Assembly (NCBI GenBank): GCA_944371315.1
Contig: CALVXN010000007.1
Coordinates: 1 to 34,436, forward strand
Source: an uncultured Bacilli bacterium
GTDB lineage: Bacteria; Bacillota_I; Bacilli_A; RF39; UBA660
DNA length: 34,436 nt
Direction of reading: 5' to 3'
In this document: positions 126 to 10,709 of the stretch, one piece after another
Layout: each line of letters begins with the position of its first letter
Numbering within the stretch: position 1 is the first letter of the stretch
Notes under the pieces: generated by a model
What the model saw: only the letters and a program-made list of their open reading frames with translations
Told to the model about the DNA's origin: nothing
The model's database searches: none
Program-made: the position numbers and the translations under genes

Positions 126-188
126 TGTTTAGAGATTTAGCCCATAAAAAAGTTATTGTTATTTGTATAAAAATATTGTTAAAAATTT

Positions 189-292
189 AGTTGTGTTGAT
201 AGCCAAGTGGAAATACCCTTACCCATCCCGAACAAGGAAGTCAAGCACTTGAACGCCGAAAATAGTATATGCGAAGATAGGAAAATGCAACT
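189..292 (+). rRNA. rrf: Complete 5S rRNA gene carried by the element
   Basis: This is a full-length 104-nt 5S. Helix I AGTTGTG (189-195) pairs with TGCAACT (286-292) with wobble pairs; helix II CAAGTG (204-209) pairs with CACTTG (246-251); helix III CCTT (217-220) pairs with AAGG (234-237). The CCATCCCGAAC and ACGCCGAA blocks are intact. It differs from the split host 5S at many positions, but the stem differences are compensatory, so it looks functional rather than decayed. It lies between the attL core and the left arm sites, that is, inside the element, in line with the rRNA operon, and ends in a T-run (294-302). It is inferred to replace the 5S broken by integration. Confidence 0.88.
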
Positions 293-306
293 ATTTTTTT
301 TTGCTT

Positions 307-343
307 AAAAAAGACTAAACCATTCAAAAATTTAGTCTTTTTA
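307..343. terminator. Bidirectional terminator between 5S and integrase
   Basis: AAAAAAGACTAAA (307-319) pairs with TTTAGTCTTTTT (331-342) around an 11-nt loop. A-runs and T-runs on both flanks let it act in both directions. It would stop rRNA read-through from entering antisense to the integrase gene and end the integrase transcript. Confidence 0.8.
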
Positions 344-358
344 TTATGTTATTTTTTG

Positions 359-382
359 CTAGGTGTCCCACTAGGTGTCCCA
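359..382 (+). repeat. Left arm-type sites, two tandem 12-mers
   Basis: CTAGGTGTCCCA is repeated twice in tandem (359-370 and 371-382). The same AGGTGTCCCA core recurs twice with the same 12-bp period and orientation at 9953-9974. Paired repeats at both ends of an element beside a tyrosine recombinase are typical of arm sites bound by the integrase N-terminal domain. The integrase stop codon lies inside the second copy. Confidence 0.75.
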
Positions 383-2738: not shown

Positions 2739-3866
2739 ATGGATATAAATATTGATAATTTAGTTGCAGATTTGAAAGTTGATTATAAAGACCAGAGTGT
2801 ACTAACAACACCATCACCTGAATTAGAAAAAGTAAACCAGTTTTTTTCTGATATTACTTCTAATGATAAAGGTGTAGAAAATTTGTTATTTCAAATACTG
2901 GGAAATGCCATGTGTAAGACAGCCGTTATGCAAAAAGCCTTTATCTTCAAAGGCAAAGGCAGGAATGGCAAGAGTCGTTTGTTTAGAATACTAGAGGCTA
3001 TTTTGGGAGAACAACAATGTTCTTATGAAACTTTAGAAACTCTTTCGGGAAATAAATCAGGTAGTAAAACAAATGCTAGATTTTTAAAAGGATGTACGGT
3101 TAATATTAGTGAAGACCAGCAACAACCCAGATATATTAATCATTCTATACTTAATAAGATTATATCAGGAGATACTATTTCAGAAATTAAAGGTAAAGAA
3201 AGAATAGTATTTAGACCTTATGCAACAATGTTGTTTTCTGTAAACGATGTGATAGACTTCAAAGAAACTAAAATATGTATTACTGATAGAATCGTAGTCA
3301 TTCAATTCAATTCAACGTTTATTGAAAATCGTAATATTAACATTGAATATGAATTATGCCAACCAAAAGCATTGCAAATAATAGCAACTAGAGCTATTAA
3401 TGCTTTTAAAGAGGTGTTAAAAAATGGGAAATTCACTATACCTCCTGTCGTGGAGTTAGAAACAAACAGATACTTTATGGACTGTAATAATGTGATAGAA
3501 TTCTGTAATTTGTTTCCAATAAAGGAATTTATGGTTAAAGACAGATACCATAAAGAATACTGTAAGTGGTGTGCTTCAAATAATTTAGAAGCCTACAATA
3601 ATGTTAAATTTGGTAAAGAAGTATTAAATTTAGGATATCGTTCTGAAAGATTTACTTTTGGTAGAAAGAAAATCACTTGTTATGTTTCTCCAAATTTTAA
3701 CAATACTGAAAACAAGAATATTTATCATAGATATCTCAAGGAAAATGGTATAAGTGAGGAAGCTGGTAGGATATATGATGAAGCTACATTAGTAGCAACC
3801 TTTGGTATTCCCCCATTTGATGAGTACTTATGGAAATGCAATAACAATACAGAAAATACTAAATAA
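2739..3866 (+). CDS. D5-like SF3 helicase (replication protein)
   Basis: A 375-residue helicase of the phage/plasmid P4/D5 type, expected to unwind the element's origin. Walker A is GKGRNGKS (72-79), the Walker B-like motif is VNISED (121-126), the sensor strand is MLFSVND (164-170) and the likely arginine finger is in DRIVVIQF (R184). A C-terminal winged-helix-like region (about 250-345) follows. The primase domain usual in larger members is absent, so priming must come from the host or this is a helicase-only initiator. Start chosen after GAGGAAAGGA; it is cotranscribed with xis. Origin-like repeats lie directly downstream. Confidence 0.88.
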   Translation: MDINIDNLVADLKVDYKDQSVLTTPSPELEKVNQFFSDITSNDKGVENLLFQILGNAMCKTAVMQKAFIFKGKGRNGKSRLFRILEAILGEQQCSYETLETLSGNKSGSKTNARFLKGCTVNISEDQQQPRYINHSILNKIISGDTISEIKGKERIVFRPYATMLFSVNDVIDFKETKICITDRIVVIQFNSTFIENRNINIEYELCQPKALQIIATRAINAFKEVLKNGKFTIPPVVELETNRYFMDCNNVIEFCNLFPIKEFMVKDRYHKEYCKWCASNNLEAYNNVKFGKEVLNLGYRSERFTFGRKKITCYVSPNFNNTENKNIYHRYLKENGISEEAGRIYDEATLVATFGIPPFDEYLWKCNNNTENTK

Positions 3867-4670: not shown

Positions 4671-5255
4671 TTAGTTTTTAACTAACACTTTATCGACTAA
4701 ACCATATGCAAGTGCATCTTCTGCATTAAACCACTTGTCTTTTAATTGAATATCATCTCTAACTTGTTCAATACTTTTTCCTGTATTATCTGATAATAAC
4801 TTTATAATGCGTTCATTTAAAGCATTAGAATGTTCAAAATCAATTTTTACTTCTCCGATTTTACCTATATTAATTGTACTTACTTCATGTATCATAACTT
4901 CACTATTCGGAGTTATATATCTTTTGCCTTTTGTTCCACCACTAAGAATTACAGCAGCCATTGAAGCACATCTTCCAATACATATTGTTTGAATATCGCT
5001 TTTTACCATTTGCATTGCGTCATAAATAGCCATTCCTTCGGAAACAGTACCACCAGGAGAATTAATATAAAATATTATATCTTTCTTGCTTTTCATAGAA
5101 TCTAGTTTTAATAGTTGTTCTACTATTTCATCAGCTTCTTCTCTGCCAATAGACTTATTTAAACGAATTATACGATTATCAAATAATTTTATTTCAGAGG
5201 GGGTTTTAGGTTTAGTCTCTTTCTTCTTTTTCTTTTTTGGTTTCTTAGTACTCAT
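4671..5255 (-). CDS. ClpP-like serine peptidase
   Basis: A ClpP-fold peptidase of 194-197 residues. Numbering from the upstream ATG at 5264, the triad is complete and correctly spaced: S101 (GRCASMAA), H126 (SEVMIHEV) and D176 (QLKDKWFNAEDA). The substrate-handling motif YINSPGG (66-72) is present. The N-terminus differs from housekeeping ClpP: a lysine tract of about 20 residues replaces the propeptide/axial-loop start. I prefer the ATG at 5255 because the AGGAAGG site abuts the upstream one. It is last in a leftward operon after an MBL nuclease and SSB. No Clp ATPase is in the element, so it would have to use a host unfoldase or act alone. Role unknown; it may be regulatory proteolysis or defence. 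Confidence 0.9.
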   Translation of the reverse strand: MSTKKPKKKKKKETKPKTPSEIKLFDNRIIRLNKSIGREEADEIVEQLLKLDSMKSKKDIIFYINSPGGTVSEGMAIYDAMQMVKSDIQTICIGRCASMAAVILSGGTKGKRYITPNSEVMIHEVSTINIGKIGEVKIDFEHSNALNERIIKLLSDNTGKSIEQVRDDIQLKDKWFNAEDALAYGLVDKVLVKN

Positions 5256-5287
5256 ATTTTTCATTCCTTCCTAATTTATTATAAATA

Positions 5288-6475
5288 CTATATGTCGTAT
5301 GCCTTCTTGTTCTTTAAATGCTTAACTTTGTATGGTAAATTTAACTTATCAAAATCATGTGAATTTTCTCCATGTATAGGAATAATTACTTTGGGCTTTA
5401 CTATATTACAAACTTCGGTAATTCCTTTAGCAGTAGCATGACCACTAGAATGTAAATAATAATATTCTTTTGGAACAAACTTAACAATATTTTCATCAGC
5501 AGTTTTGCCTTGCAAGTATCCTAACCATTGTGAATAAATAAATAAATTGTCCTTGAAATTAGGGCTATTAACAAACTTTTTTGAAAAGTAATTGCTTCGC
5601 ACTAACATACAAAAGCCTCGATTTATCATATCTTCATAAAACTTACCATCAAAACTTTTAACATCTGAAAAATTATAATAATCAGTATGTTTTAAAGTGG
5701 TTTTGGTTACATAATCAAGTATCTCTTTTTGGTAGTCATCACAAATAAATAGTTTAGTTCCTGCTTTTCTATTTGCATGATAGAAAGAAGCTATCCTATC
5801 AATATTGGTAGAAGCACACATAATAAAGACATACTTATTATTTTTTATCAAGTCTATTGCTTCCTTTTGTAATTCAAATTCAGACATAAGGATTTCATCA
5901 ACTCTTGAAAGGGTAGTATGTTCACAAATGAGAATATCAACATTTCCTACATCTTCAAGTATTTTAGGAATAAGTCGACCAAGAGGACCATGCATTCTAA
6001 AATCTCCAGTATGTAAAACTCTTTTACCATCGGCTTCAATAAGAAACATATAACTATCAAAAGCAGAATGGTCTATGCGAATAGGGGTTAATCTCATATC
6101 TCCAATTTCAATAGTTTCTTCAGGTCTAAAAGTTTTAAAAGTTTTAATTCTGTCAATATGTTCTTGAGTAACTTCTGCAATACTAGGCTCTTTCATTCTC
6201 TTTTGGTAGATCGTAAATATTTCTTTGGCTTGTTCTCCAATGTAAATAGGAACTTCTTTCTTAACCTGCATATATTCCCCAATGTGGTCTAAATGATAAT
6301 GAGAAATAAAAACAGCATCGCATTTTTTACTAACCTTAGCAACATTCACTTTTACTTTACTATCACAATTTGGTAGATTAGTTCCAACATCAATAAGTAT
6401 TTTTGCTTTTTTACTTCTAATTTCAGTTACACATCCCCCAATTTGATTAATACCTCTGTGAATTTTGATTTGCAT
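5288..6475 (-). CDS. Beta-CASP metallo-beta-lactamase-fold nuclease (RNase J-like)
   Basis: A 395-residue MBL/beta-CASP protein, the group of RNase J and CPSF-type nucleases. Metal ligands are visible: HYHLDH (59-64), H136 (IDHSAFD), D158 (HTGDFR), and the late histidines H346 (SSGHATA) and H368 (IPIHGEN). It is shorter than RNase J (about 550) and lacks most of the C-terminal domain. It is expected to cut or trim RNA, possibly DNA. It lies 14 bp after ssb and 32 bp before the ClpP-like gene (start at 5255) in one leftward operon. Two places in its message, 6369-6380 and 6202-6211, are complementary to the loop of the candidate small RNA. Confidence 0.88.
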   Translation of the reverse strand: MQIKIHRGINQIGGCVTEIRSKKAKILIDVGTNLPNCDSKVKVNVAKVSKKCDAVFISHYHLDHIGEYMQVKKEVPIYIGEQAKEIFTIYQKRMKEPSIAEVTQEHIDRIKTFKTFRPEETIEIGDMRLTPIRIDHSAFDSYMFLIEADGKRVLHTGDFRMHGPLGRLIPKILEDVGNVDILICEHTTLSRVDEILMSEFELQKEAIDLIKNNKYVFIMCASTNIDRIASFYHANRKAGTKLFICDDYQKEILDYVTKTTLKHTDYYNFSDVKSFDGKFYEDMINRGFCMLVRSNYFSKKFVNSPNFKDNLFIYSQWLGYLQGKTADENIVKFVPKEYYYLHSSGHATAKGITEVCNIVKPKVIIPIHGENSHDFDKLNLPYKVKHLKNKKAYDI

Positions 6476-6489
6476 AAGTATATCCCTTT

Positions 6490-6804
6490 CTACTTTTGAT
6501 TTAATAACTCTCTATTACTTGATAAGAATGTTACTTTTTCAGCAACGACTTTGATTAGATTACCTTCTTTACTTTCTAATCTTCCTCTAATCCCTATTAA
6601 GTCGTTTTTCTTGCAATATTGAAAAACTTTACTTCCAACATAATTTGTTAAATCAATAGGTAAAACATCAGTTTCATAAACACCATTTTGATTTTTGAAA
6701 TTACGACTAATATTCAACATAAGTTGATAAGTAACTTGGTCATTCACTTCAATTTTTTCAACATCATTATATATTTTTCCAATTAGCATAACGTGATTAT
6801 TCAT
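6490..6804 (-). CDS. ssb: Single-stranded DNA-binding protein (SSB family)
   Basis: A 104-residue OB-fold protein opening MNNHVMLIGKIYNDVEKI with 'YQLMLNISRN' and 'DVLPIDL..VGSKVFQYCKKNDLIGIRGRLE', the standard SSB strand pattern. It is shorter than chromosomal SSB and lacks the acidic C-terminal tail that recruits host replication proteins, as in some phage and plasmid SSBs. It probably coats single-stranded DNA exposed by the element's SF3 helicase. GGAGATGA precedes the ATG. It is second in the leftward operon. Confidence 0.88.
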   Translation of the reverse strand: MNNHVMLIGKIYNDVEKIEVNDQVTYQLMLNISRNFKNQNGVYETDVLPIDLTNYVGSKVFQYCKKNDLIGIRGRLESKEGNLIKVVAEKVTFLSSNRELLNQK

Positions 6805-6832
6805 GATTTCATCTCCATTTCTTTATTAGGTT

Positions 6833-7405
6833 TTACATAAACATAGTTCTTTTTTTATCGTAACAATACTTTGAACATCTTTTCAACACAGTTTTTTTTG
6901 GTCTTGTTAATCCTTTCTTATTAAAATAATACCTATTAATTAAATATTTCACATAAGCACTTGTGTACTCTTGATGATATAGATTTTCAATATATCTTTG
7001 CACCTCAGGAATATTTCTGTGTCTCCGAAGTAGCTTTAATTGCTCGGATATATTATTCTTTTGTTCCAGAATGTTTTTAACTACAGGTGGAGTTTTGTCT
7101 CTTACATCAGCAAACTCTTTAAAAGTGATTTTATGATTTAAATACTTGGTTAATTTATAAATATAATATAGAGCTATATGTTTAGTAAATTCAATTTTAA
7201 AATCAAAATCTTGTATTTGCTTAGTGTATAAAACATAAGAATAGTTTTTTTCCTTATTATATACAATAACTTCTTCTCCATTTGGTTTAAGTTTAAGATT
7301 AGTAAAAACTGCTTTTGTCTTATTCTTACTAGTCTTTGCAACTTGAATATTGTTAAAAACTAAGTCTAAAAAGTAATAGACTTCTTTTTCAAAATCTTGC
7401 TTCAT
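6833..7405 (-). CDS. Hypothetical protein, first gene of the SSB operon
   Basis: A basic protein of about 190 residues that I do not recognise. The middle (about 95-150) has predicted helices with KEFADVRDKTPPVVK and LRRHRNIPEVQRYIENL; the end is rich in K, R, Y and C (RCSKYCYDKKRT). No catalytic motif, signal peptide or membrane segment is evident. The start is put at the ATG after AGGTG rather than the TTG five codons upstream. Its place directly before ssb suggests a replication or nucleic-acid role, which is inference only. Confidence 0.7.
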   Translation of the reverse strand: MKQDFEKEVYYFLDLVFNNIQVAKTSKNKTKAVFTNLKLKPNGEEVIVYNKEKNYSYVLYTKQIQDFDFKIEFTKHIALYYIYKLTKYLNHKITFKEFADVRDKTPPVVKNILEQKNNISEQLKLLRRHRNIPEVQRYIENLYHQEYTSAYVKYLINRYYFNKKGLTRPKKTVLKRCSKYCYDKKRTMFM

Positions 7406-7422
7406 CTCCAACACCTGCAATT

Positions 7423-7465
7423 AATATAACATAATGGCTTTTATAAGTCGTAACACAAAATAAAA
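7423..7465 (-). promoter_or_regulatory. Probable promoter region of the SSB-MBL-ClpP operon, repeated at the right end
   Basis: AATATAACATAAT, then TTTTA, AGT, GTAA and ACAAAA is shared in order with 9868-9910 (about 80% identical by eye over 40 bp). Read leftward it offers a TTACGA-like -35 and a TTATAT-like -10 just before the first gene. Being repeated in two non-coding places, it may hold a shared regulator site. Confidence 0.4.
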
Positions 7466-7517
7466 ATAAGAAAGAGTAAAGTTAAATTAAGATAAATATA
7501 CACTTCATCACACAACA

Positions 7518-7547
7518 TAGAAAAAAGGACTTATTAATTAGTCCTTT
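7518..7547 (-). terminator. Terminator of the PH-like/membrane protein operon
   Basis: AAAGGACT (7524-7531) pairs perfectly with AGTCCTTT (7540-7547). Read leftward the stem is followed by a run of T (complement of 7520-7526). It lies about 90 bp after the stop of the membrane-anchored protein at 7635. Confidence 0.75.
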
Positions 7548-7634
7548 ATATATCTGCTTAAAATAAAGTATATATTCATGAATCCCAATGTATTTTTTAA
7601 TATTTTAGTAAGATTTGAAATAAGTGATATTTCA

Positions 7635-8228
7635 TTAATATAACTCTGATGTTATATAATCTACTAAATCAGGATACATTTGCTCAAATTCATCTATTGG
7701 TGCAATAAAATAACCAGTTCCTAAAGTATCTGTGTATCCATCCTTATCAACATCAAAGTATACTTCTCCCAATGTAAAGAAATATTCTTTTTGCCCAGTA
7801 TCCATATAAGTAAAACAAGTGGGATATAAATAAGTTGATAAATCAACAGTATTTTGTCCTGTATAGGCTTGTTCTGTCCAATCATAAGCAATATTTTTAA
7901 CAATATTATATAAGTTAGGATAGTTAGTAGCTAATGCACTATCAAATATTCTTTGGTTATTGACAACATTTGTTATATCTACTGGTGTACCTTTTAAAAA
8001 TTTCTTTTCATCTGCAATGTAAAAGTATTCTGTTACCTCATATCTTTCTACATTAGAGTTTGGAACTTGATTATTGTTTTCTTGATTGTTTTCTTGGCTA
8101 TTATTTTCTTCGCTTGTAGTAAGATTATCATCTTTTTCAGTCAATAAAGCTACCCCAACTCCAAAGCCTATTGTCAACATAAAAATACCTATAATAAGTA
8201 GCACTGCTTTAATTACATCTTTTCTCAT
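7635..8228 (-). CDS. Membrane-anchored extracellular protein, unknown function
   Basis: A 197-residue protein with one N-terminal membrane segment (about 7-30: VIKAVLLIIGIFMLTIGFG, then VGVALL) and no lipobox cysteine, followed by a Q/N/E-rich linker (38-60) and an acidic globular domain (about 62-197) rich in Y, D and T. DVDKDGYTD (about 156-164) resembles a short Ca-binding loop. I do not recognise the family. It is the last of three leftward genes, all probably envelope-linked, and ends before a good terminator. It may be cell-surface cargo such as host-envelope modification or phage exclusion; this is speculation. Confidence 0.75.
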   Translation of the reverse strand: MRKDVIKAVLLIIGIFMLTIGFGVGVALLTEKDDNLTTSEENNSQENNQENNNQVPNSNVERYEVTEYFYIADEKKFLKGTPVDITNVVNNQRIFDSALATNYPNLYNIVKNIAYDWTEQAYTGQNTVDLSTYLYPTCFTYMDTGQKEYFFTLGEVYFDVDKDGYTDTLGTGYFIAPIDEFEQMYPDLVDYITSELY

Positions 8229-8250
8229 TAAACTCTCACTCCTTAAACAT

Positions 8251-9012
8251 TTAATTTAATTCTAATATAACTTCATTTTTGTTGATTCCCACACTATAAC
8301 GATAGTTGCTTCCACTAGCGCTTGGTAAATAGCCAAACCATATTGTATTGGAATCAAAACTATCTATTAGTATATCACTTGTTGTAGTACATTTCACAAT
8401 AATAATATCACCGCTAGTACTATTATATTTGCAACTTATTTCGCTTGGTGATAAATAATCTCCTGCGAGTTTTGAAACAGCAGCTCTTTCAGCACTATCT
8501 CTACGAGAGTTCGTTTCAGCTCCACCTGAAAGCCAATAGACTCCCCAGATAAAAAAACCTATACCTATTATAACAGGTATTAAATCAAAGATATTAACTC
8601 TTATGCTAGTAGCACTATCATCATTACTAACTTGCGCATTATTTAATGTGGTAGTTTGACTTTCTTGGTCAATTGATTCTGATGGCATTTTTTTGACAGA
8701 ATTTATTTCCTTCTGTTCTGTTTTAACATATTCTGTTTGGATTATTTCTTCATTTTTTTGTTGTGATATTTCTCTTAATTGATTAATTAATTGTTGGTCC
8801 TTTTTCATTCCAAGATATGTTGTACTCCCGCCATATTGAATAATATGTAGCTGTTCATCATCTTCATGATATGAAGAATTCTTAATATTAGAGTAAGGGA
8901 TTTTAATCAAATTACCATCATTAGTAGTTATAGTTAGGCTATCGTCTTTTATTTTTAGTATTGCATCATTCTTCTTGTTTCCTTGGATAAGCACTACATT
9001 TAACTTTCTCAT
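8251..9012 (-). CDS. PH-like N-terminal domain protein with one membrane segment
   Basis: A 253-residue protein. Residues 1-90 alternate short beta strands ('LNVVLIQGNKK', 'SLTITTNDGNLIKIPYSNI'), like a bacterial PH/GRAM-type domain. A Q/E/S-rich linker follows (about 90-145), then one strong membrane helix (about 147-165: LIPVIIGIGFFIWGVYWLS) and a small C-terminal beta-rich domain with two cysteines that may be outside. It starts 3 bp after the stop of the smaller PH-like gene, so the two are translationally linked. Function unknown. The paired PH-like genes suggest a membrane-surface sensing or scaffold role. Confidence 0.75.
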   Translation of the reverse strand: MRKLNVVLIQGNKKNDAILKIKDDSLTITTNDGNLIKIPYSNIKNSSYHEDDEQLHIIQYGGSTTYLGMKKDQQLINQLREISQQKNEEIIQTEYVKTEQKEINSVKKMPSESIDQESQTTTLNNAQVSNDDSATSIRVNIFDLIPVIIGIGFFIWGVYWLSGGAETNSRRDSAERAAVSKLAGDYLSPSEISCKYNSTSGDIIIVKCTTTSDILIDSFDSNTIWFGYLPSASGSNYRYSVGINKNEVILELN

Positions 9013-9015
9013 AAA

Positions 9016-9303
9016 CTAGCCTCTTAATTTTTTTATAGCACTTTGAATAGAATTAACCCATTCTTTCCCACCAAAAACAGCAAAAGTTTCGCTTCCATTA
9101 ATAGTTTCGATTATTAAATTATTGGGAAACCCTTTTTTTACATTAGTGATGTTTTCTAATTCAACTTCAAATTCTTTTTTGCCTACATTAACTTTGTGCC
9201 CTTCGAAATATAAAGTTTCATTAGTTAAAATAAGTTTTCCACCTTTACTGCCAAAGCCATGATACCAATTAGCAGCACCACTTTTTAAAATTTCTTCTTT
9301 CAT
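9016..9303 (-). CDS. GRAM/bacterial PH-domain protein
   Basis: A 95-residue single-domain protein with the order 'GKLILTNETLYFEGH', 'FEVELENITNVKK', 'NLIIETINGSETFAVFG', then 'EWVNSIQSAIKKL', as in GRAM/bPH domains: strand pairs followed by a C-terminal helix. TAAGGAGGAG precedes the start. It heads the leftward operon, divergent from an XRE gene across operator-like repeats, and is probably repressed by that regulator. Such domains bind membranes or proteins; a specific role here is not known. Confidence 0.75.
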   Translation of the reverse strand: MKEEILKSGAANWYHGFGSKGGKLILTNETLYFEGHKVNVGKKEFEVELENITNVKKGFPNNLIIETINGSETFAVFGGKEWVNSIQSAIKKLRG

Positions 9304-9360
9304 TTTTTCTCCTCCTTACTATTTATTATAGCATAAATAATAATATTTGAAAATATATTT

Positions 9361-9458
9361 TTAAGTTATTTACTTAAATTATTTAAGTATTTAATTTATG
9401 GTTAAATTCTTGCTTTTTACCGATAATATTACTGATATTTATTAAGTTATTTGCTTAA
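9361..9458. promoter_or_regulatory. Operator repeats between the PH-like operon and XRE gene
   Basis: TTAAGTTATTTACTTAA (9361-9377) and TTAAGTTATTTGCTTAA (9442-9458) are 16/17 identical, each with palindromic TTAAG/CTTAA ends. Another TTTAAGTATTTAA lies between them (about 9382). The right copy abuts the ribosome site of the XRE gene. This pattern suits autoregulation by that protein and repression of the leftward operon. Confidence 0.65.
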
Positions 9459-9474
9459 TATAAAGGAGGCTTAT

Positions 9475-9777
9475 ATGAACTATACCGACGAAAACAGAAA
9501 AGTGCTTTTACAAAAAATAGGAAAAAACATTAATTACTATCGTTATCATTGTAATAACATAAAGATAATGAATGATAAGGGCTTCGTAACCATTGAAAAG
9601 CTAGCAGAAGAAATAGACAGTAGTCCAAATATGCTTTATAACTTAACAGCTAAGAAAGTGGAACAAGGAGTATCTGTAATATTTTTAGATAAATTAGCTC
9701 GTGTATTAGATGTAAGTTTGAGTTGTTTCTTTTTAAATACACCATTACAAAATCCACCAAGATATAAAGAACAATAA
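9475..9777 (+). CDS. XRE-family regulator of the right-end module
   Basis: A 100-residue helix-turn-helix protein: 'GFVTIEKLAEEIDSSPNMLYNLT' then 'VSVIFLDKLARVLDVSLSCFF'. This is an XRE fold with little beyond the DNA-binding domain. The start is the ATG at 9475 after AAAGGAGG; an earlier in-frame start would overlap the operator. It is divergent from the PH-like operon and flanked by matching operators, so it probably represses itself and that operon, independently of the CI/Cro pair at the other end. Confidence 0.85.
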   Translation: MNYTDENRKVLLQKIGKNINYYRYHCNNIKIMNDKGFVTIEKLAEEIDSSPNMLYNLTAKKVEQGVSVIFLDKLARVLDVSLSCFFLNTPLQNPPRYKEQ

Positions 9778-9952: not shown

Positions 9953-9974
9953 AGGTGTCCCATTAGGTGTCCCA
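9953..9974 (+). repeat. Right arm-type sites
   Basis: AGGTGTCCCA occurs at 9953-9962 and 9965-9974, the same sequence, spacing and orientation as the pair at 361-382. It lies about 107 bp inside the right core; the left pair lies about 235 bp inside its core, the extra length being the 5S gene. Confidence 0.75.
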
Positions 9975-10081: not shown

Positions 10082-10097
10082 CCATCCCGAACAGAGA
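10082..10097 (+). repeat. attR core (direct repeat)
   Basis: Identical to 110-125. Upstream sequence (GTGTAATTCGT) does not fit 5S while downstream sequence does, so this is where element DNA ends and host 5S resumes. Confidence 0.85.
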
Positions 10098-10151
10098 AGT
10101 TAAGACCTAATACGCCGAAGATAGTGTAATGCGAAAATAGGTAGTTGCCAA
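10098..10151 (+). rRNA. rrf: 5S rRNA, 3' half of host gene
   Basis: The second half of the split 5S gene: GAAGTTAAGA region, helix II partner ACCTAA, the ACGCCGAAGATAGT block, and helix I partner GTTGCCAA (10144-10151), which pairs with TTGGTAAC at 77-84. A run of nine T follows. By itself it lacks any promoter-proximal half, so it cannot give a normal 5S unless the element excises. Confidence 0.9.
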
Positions 10152-10200
10152 TTTTTTTTTGCAATAAATTATGAAAATAAATAAATCGTAAAATAATATT

Positions 10201-10256: not shown

Positions 10257-10709
10257 ATGGAATTTAAATATACATCAAGGTCAGTAGAAGACACATTAAC
10301 AATTGCACAAAACATTGAAAGTGAAAAATTTCCAAATATGATAATATGCTTAGAAGGTGAACTTGGAAGTGGTAAAACTGTATTTACAAAAGGCTTTGCA
10401 TCTGCATTAGGCATTAAAGATACAATAACTAGTCCAACATTTAATATAATAAAAGAATATTTAAATGGGGAAATGCCTTTATATCATATGGATGTTTATC
10501 GCTTAGAAGAAACAGATGAAGATATCGGTATAAATGATTATTTTAACAAAAATGGCATTACAATTATAGAATGGGCAGATATAATAAATGATATATTACC
10601 ATCAGAAAGACTTGTTATTAAATTTAAAGTTATAGATGAGGACACACGAGTATTAGTATTTATCCCATATGGGGAAAAATACGAAGAATTATGTAGTGCC
10701 GTATTATAA
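10257..10709 (+). CDS. tsaE: tRNA t6A synthesis ATPase TsaE
   Basis: A 150-residue P-loop ATPase that drives the cycle of the TsaB-TsaD-TsaE complex, which transfers threonylcarbamoyl to A37 of ANN-decoding tRNAs in the cytoplasm. Walker A is GELGSGKT (34-41), followed by 'ITSPTFNIIKEY' (about 59-70) and 'IIEWAD' near 103. Length is normal. It leads an operon with tsaB (starting at the last base of its stop codon), rimI and tsaD, the common Firmicute order. It is the first gene beyond the mobile element and the rRNA terminator. Confidence 0.95.
   Translation: MEFKYTSRSVEDTLTIAQNIESEKFPNMIICLEGELGSGKTVFTKGFASALGIKDTITSPTFNIIKEYLNGEMPLYHMDVYRLEETDEDIGINDYFNKNGITIIEWADIINDILPSERLVIKFKVIDEDTRVLVFIPYGEKYEELCSAVL

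Follow-up and report, generated by a model that had tools for sequence, protein, structure and literature searches.

Integrative elements usually spare an essential target gene, either by insertion near the gene end or by restoration of the gene through a fusion, and inteins and homing introns disrupt their own recognition site upon insertion. For tyrosine-integrase elements targeting tRNA genes or icd, one source describes an attachment site attP that carries a replacement for part of the target (PMC10111431). The same source describes helper-embedded PICIs that hold a captured backup copy of the late gene that they interrupt (PMC10111431). In a large survey, the integration sites are assigned to tRNA and tmRNA genes, coding sequences and intergenic regions, and an rRNA class is not mentioned (PMC12424338). 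Our literature search, which covered few subscription papers, returned no report of a 5S rRNA target associated with a recoded whole-gene substitute. A paper on Asgard elements was set aside, its available text being concerned with tRNA sites.

The window analysed here, the whole stretch of 34,436 nucleotides, is one contig (C7) of a 1.09-Mb draft genome. It contains an element of 9,972 bp sited between the two parts of the host 5S rRNA gene. The 5' part of the disrupted gene lies at positions 76-109 on the plus strand, with the 5' strand of helix III (CTCT) at 104-107, and is followed by the attL identity block CCATCCCGAACAGAGA at 110-125. The same 16 bp are present identically at 10082-10097, where they form the attR block that opens the 3' part of the gene (10082-10152, plus strand). 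The host helix III pairs CTCT (104-107) with AGAG, which is found at 121-124 and again at 10093-10096. Rejoining 76-109 to 10082-10152 gives a 5S of 105 nucleotides that matches, without a single difference, the uninterrupted gene of a congener (G029). This genome displays the empty site, in which 23S, 5S and tmRNA follow one another in the order of the window, with an uninterrupted 5S and no element. The integrase gene adjoins one end of the element, direct repeats are located at both ends and a relative has the site empty, all features of an element inserted by a tyrosine integrase. In the congener, no 16S rRNA was found in the approximately 4 kb upstream of the 23S-5S pair (L058, 1-4165), and the 16S may be unlinked to the 23S-5S pair in its group. 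The first host gene to the right of the element is tsaE (10257-10709, plus strand; TIGR00150).

The sequence fused at the attachment junction (76-164) reaches only 34 bits against the RF00001 cut-off of 38. The target is not restored by a fusion in the identity block, and the element carries a separate and whole 5S gene. The host's 23S-linked 5S is apparently its only 5S gene, the copy number being taken from draft assemblies. Since the genomes in which the locus is well assembled have a single 23S gene (G030, G029, G134 and G277), and since the carriers other than G373 display no further complete 5S in draft genomes that can hide copies, the substitute may be the sole 5S of the carriers.

This substitute 5S (189-293, plus strand) covers the full RF00001 model from 1 to 120 with 62.1 bits, and the substitutes of the related elements obtain 65-69 bits; from its sequence, it looks like a functional RNA. 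Its helix I is formed by 189-197 and 284-292, and its helix III by CCTT (217-220) and AAGG (234-237), so that two of the four pairs are changed on both strands with the pairing kept. The counterpart of the identity block, CCATCCCGAACAAGGA at 223-238, shows only two differences from CCATCCCGAACAGAGA in the 16-bp block (G13 to A and A14 to G). The sequence-only reading of this locus had claimed compensatory changes in helix III of the element 5S, and the comparison of CCTT/AAGG with the host CTCT/AGAG confirms them. The motif CCATCCCGAACA, with up to two mismatches allowed, occurs four times in the window against 0.46 expected; because of this excess, and because eight other elements have a like compensated change, the observation is not due to chance. 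From the alignment of the seven distinct substitutes, we observe five pairs changed on both sides and 92.3% of the cells paired, a result reached by none of 500 shuffles, and pairing falls to 26-40% when the partner strand is slid by one to three columns. That the substitute could be a second copy of the host 5S was rejected, as it is located inside the element in 9/9 cases and differs from the rejoined host gene. Concerning a promoter of its own, no plus-strand match was detected upstream of the substitute, and matches were not in excess over shuffled sequences.

The substitute is followed by a T-run and an A/T-rich hairpin (294-343, plus strand; fold z of -2.66), a possible terminator separating the 5S from the integrase. 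The tyrosine integrase of 401 amino acids is encoded on the minus strand at 371-1576 (PF00589, E 7.9e-25), as is a Cro/C1-type repressor-like protein at 1723-2160 (PF01381). A perfect TTGACA-16-TATAAT promoter match at 2210-2237 precedes a small ORF (2283-2468) and diverges from the repressor gene, giving a phage-like control region. On the plus strand, positions 2739-3866 encode a replication protein similar to the C-terminal and helicase part of P4-family primases (TIGR01613, 130 bits over the cut-off; phrog_864). The cargo, at 4671-9777, is mostly common to the elements of G134 and G063 and comprises a ClpP-like protease, a protein with an RNase J-like metallo-beta-lactamase fold, an SSB, a GRAM-domain protein and unknowns. 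In the element, no virion structural gene was recognised with confidence. The only packaging-type candidate is the ClpP-like protein, which resembles head proteases, and neither terminase, capsid nor AlpA was found.

Related elements were searched with a pattern of two 5S cores about 110 bp apart, in which helix III of the second core was left free. This pattern recovered three further cases from 385 genomes of the order and, when applied to all genome contigs, six from Bacilli, with the first three among them. An integrase search ignoring the 5S gave six carriers in 385 genomes of the order, of which two were new and all six have a recoded substitute. There are nine elements in total, the window and eight others, with a layout alike in every carrier. 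Their integrases are 77-83% identical to that of the window where compared (five other genomes of the order). At the level of the class, no integrase relative past 1e-60 was found outside the order, and in a genus-wide search the relatives other than the window's integrase itself were all weak. The integrase search confirmed none in viral contigs and detected only distant relatives, below 60% identity, in phage and plasmid records. The attP junction pattern and the substitute 5S pattern are both absent from the viral contigs, and phage records contain neither the host nor the substitute 5S. The other matches of the two-core pattern were set aside on inspection, being tandem normal 5S genes (Brochothrix L074 and Bacillus L089), dispersed repeats in Legionella or chance matches in coding sequence. 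Two Patescibacteria contigs (L092 and L098) display truncated 5' fragments of 5S ahead of a complete 5S in which the core sequence is kept.

Three genomes, G061, G395 and G396 (L055, L149 and L150), have integrases that are 100% identical despite differing host 5S parts, and these sequences therefore point to a recent transfer between hosts. The copy of G394 (L148, contig C16) is reduced to 5.66 kb by deletion of its middle, with the RNase J-like gene fused to the integrase end and the 5S intact, and is likely immobile. The assembly of G373 contains an occupied attL (L156, contig C58) together with an empty and intact 5S (L218, contig C76) with identical upstream sequence, which suggests that the occupied and empty states coexist within one population.

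Helix III is CCTT/AAGG in the substitutes of the window (G000) and of G058, and CCAA/TTGG in the seven others. To compare, a host 5S sample was gathered with a pattern leaving helix III unconstrained, and all 103 distinct host sequences keep CTNN/NNAG. The hosts have T-A at pair 2 without exception, and the nine substitutes have C-G; pair 3 is C-G or G-C in every host and A-T or T-A in every substitute; neither substitute version of helix III occurs among these hosts. Comparably distant hosts show 0, 2 or, in rare cases, 4 differences over the eight helix III positions, whereas a substitute and a host show 4 or 6. The substitute of G134 differs from its nearest host at six of the eight positions, with no difference in loop A, helix II or loop B. 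The alignment of the nine element 5S genes, which the sequence-only reading had proposed as a check, bears it out: all nine lack the host helix III sequence and keep the pairing. The counter-case that it had named, a replacement 5S with an intact block, is found in none of the nine elements, the 5S-blind integrase census (6/6 recoded) included. The helix III pattern as read from these alignments is real, recurrent and specific, and it is not the sole exception, helix I of the substitutes also being beyond the usual host range.

Only five bases separate the substitutes of G058 and G134: one adjoins helix III, and the other four make up its pairs 3-4. In the integrase tree, G058 is grouped with G134, G063 and G373, apart from G000, and the AAGG form thus probably arose twice. 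The independent helix III events are few, and because the elements share ancestry, C-G at pair 2 may be a single event followed by about two A-T/T-A swaps. Another reading is descent and drift, in which the element acquired its 5S from a lineage whose helix III was different and has simply passed it on, the changes being ordinary compensated 5S evolution. The element 5S sequences are indeed closely alike, and a CC..GG helix III is used by other bacteria, as in the ordinary 5S of the Bacillus locus L089. We nevertheless regard drift as improbable: the loops and helix II are exactly those of hosts from the same order, so the source was probably local, and this helix III is found in no sampled host of that order. 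Moreover, helix III has changed again within the group while the rest of the RNA remained unchanged, and it has never reverted to the host state.

The DNA side of the same positions was considered through the attachment junctions. In G395 and G058, the left junction has AGAG and the right junction ACAG, and in G373 an ACAG empty site is found alongside an AGAG junction. Since AGAG is of the element and ACAG of the host in these three genomes, strand exchange is placed left of position 13, within CCATCCCGAACA. Identity over a stretch of typically 7 bp tends to be required by tyrosine integrases (PMC10111431). The dyad centre of helix III designates CCATCCC (110-116) as the likely exchange segment, with flanking half-sites; in attL, the right half-site would be GAACAGAGA at 117-125, and the right limit of the exchange is set by the junctions of the same three genomes. 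The motif CCATCCCGAACA is whole in the window substitute and kept through position 11 in all nine, and CCATCCC is intact in every substitute. As right half-site, attP has GAACAGAGA, the used hosts have GAACASAGN, and the substitutes have GAACAAGGA or GAACTTGGA. At position 14, every used site whose right side can be read has A, and 9/9 substitutes have G. The left half-site is also changed in the substitutes, and this side is loosely specified in attP.

The earlier claim that the integration core is destroyed in the substitute holds for the flanking half-sites, chiefly through the change of A14 to G, and fails for CCATCCC itself. As to its reservation that the integrase might tolerate the changed bases, natural insertions do accept a mismatch at position 13 (and also at 16 in G394). 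Given these mismatches and the widely differing left half-sites of attP and attB, the integrase specificity may be loose. It is plausible that the recoding prevents self-insertion, deletion of the 5S cassette or tandem insertion.

Two pairs of direct repeats AGGTGTCCCA look like arm-type integrase sites. The first pair (361-382, plus strand, 12-bp period) overlaps the 3' end of the integrase gene, and the repeats of the second (9953-9974, plus strand) stand 129 and 117 bp away from the attR core. In attP, both clusters have the 12-bp spacing, with the left one at 129 and 117 bp from the core and the right one at about 240-265 bp. The left distances are equal in six of six elements with a right end (to within 1 bp in G395). 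The substitute 5S is placed between the core and the right arm repeats, so that an attB-like sequence in it would be a competing core inside the integrase-DNA complex, a plausible motive for the recoding.

Attachment-site avoidance leaves unexplained the recoding of helix I, which the sequence-only reading had overlooked. The helix I pair 8/97 is T-A in 9/9 substitutes and A-T in about 97% of hosts. The element arm right of the crossover (126-188, plus strand) is antisense, at about 150-165, to the host orphan at its 5' end, and the stretch covered takes in loop A residues that are unpaired in a normal 5S. The fold of arm and orphan is alike in 9/9 elements (z from -1.7 to -6.9), and comparison with shuffled arms gives p ≤0.006 in seven elements and 0.05 and 0.07 in the remaining two. 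In partition-function folds of naked RNA, ribosomal proteins being absent from the model, a host 5S placed behind the orphan forms helix I with a probability of 0.00-0.11, against 0.89-0.99 for the substitute in five of six cases and 0.46 in the window. The arm perhaps sequesters the orphan or marks it for processing.

These observations are also the strength of a reading by RNA insulation alone, in which helices I and III were both recoded only against pairing with the upstream orphan in the same transcript, the integrase being uninvolved. It accounts for a helix I recoded at nearly invariant host positions, for the antisense arm of all nine elements and for the folds behind the orphan. Helix II has not been recoded, though its 5' strand is in the orphan too, and the probability of helix III, in the same naked-RNA folds, shifts little with the orphan context in four of six host cases. 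In addition, the substitutes of G134 and G058 differ in helix III alone, apart from the adjacent base. As a complete explanation, insulation alone is in our opinion unlikely. Because the orphan affects the folding of helix I and mostly not that of helix III, the modelled folds are best read as RNA insulation for helix I and integrase avoidance for helix III. The differences around helices I and III also interrupt homology, and such divergence could keep the substitute from being converted by either half of the host 5S, or deleted by recombination with them. We give very little credit to such avoidance of homologous recombination, as identity elsewhere is high (helix II and the loops are unchanged), the stretches in common are very short as it is, and altered spacers would do equally well.

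The explanation that we favour, and consider reasonably probable as a whole, combines both constraints. The tyrosine integrase inserts the element within helix III/loop C of the 5S gene that is linked to the host's 23S. This insertion destroys the gene, for which reason the element supplies a whole substitute, some 110 bp in from its left end and oriented like the host gene, where it could be transcribed from the rRNA operon. With its place in attP, flanked by the crossover core on one side and the arm-type sites on the other, the substitute must not act as an attachment site itself, and its helix III would therefore be held by integrase selection at altered sequences, which would change both half-sites around an intact CCATCCC and preserve base pairing. 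Separately, the recoded helix I and the pairing of the left arm with the orphan 5' half would prevent the orphan from capturing the 3' strand of the substitute. A broader proposal, to which we would give somewhat less than an even chance, is that the element takes over the only 5S of its host. The native gene would be cut and its orphan capped by the antisense arm, the substitute would be recoded in helix I against RNA mispairing and in helix III against its own integrase, and every ribosome of a carrier would depend on rRNA of the element.

An insertion in the middle of the 5S gene that is repaired by a whole second gene makes the remedy itself a target. The answer seems to be a compensated recoding at the DNA-protein interface with the RNA structure retained, which provides a compact natural system, open to testing, in which two separable constraints act on the same sequence. 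It also represents an rRNA gene evolving as cargo of a mobile element, and 5S sequences taken from carrier genomes should be used with caution as they may not be the host's own.

A replacement sequence for an interrupted target is known; the 5S target and the recoded whole-gene substitute are new here, as far as our literature search found no report. The elements of tRNA genes and icd share with this one the site-specific insertion in a conserved gene, the damage offset by element sequence and arm-type repeats whose distance to the core is fixed. They restore their gene by a part fused in the identity block, whereas the 5S is cut in its middle and replaced by a whole second gene recoded away from the landing site. 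Helper-embedded PICIs, like this element, may bear an intact copy of the gene that they interrupt, but these are protein genes of prophages, and recoding of the attachment site is not reported in the available part of that source (PMC10111431). With P4-like and PICI satellites and integrative mobilizable elements, our element has in common a size of about 10-12 kb, an integrase, a repressor and a P4-family primase, and it displays the combination of integrase and P4-type primase of the P4-like and PICI satellites. Unlike these groups, no helper, packaging, AlpA or relaxase gene was identified in it. Finally, as with inteins and homing introns, a selfish element occupies a site that would not be targeted again; those elements split the site by their insertion, whereas here an extra gene copy is recoded through compensated base changes.
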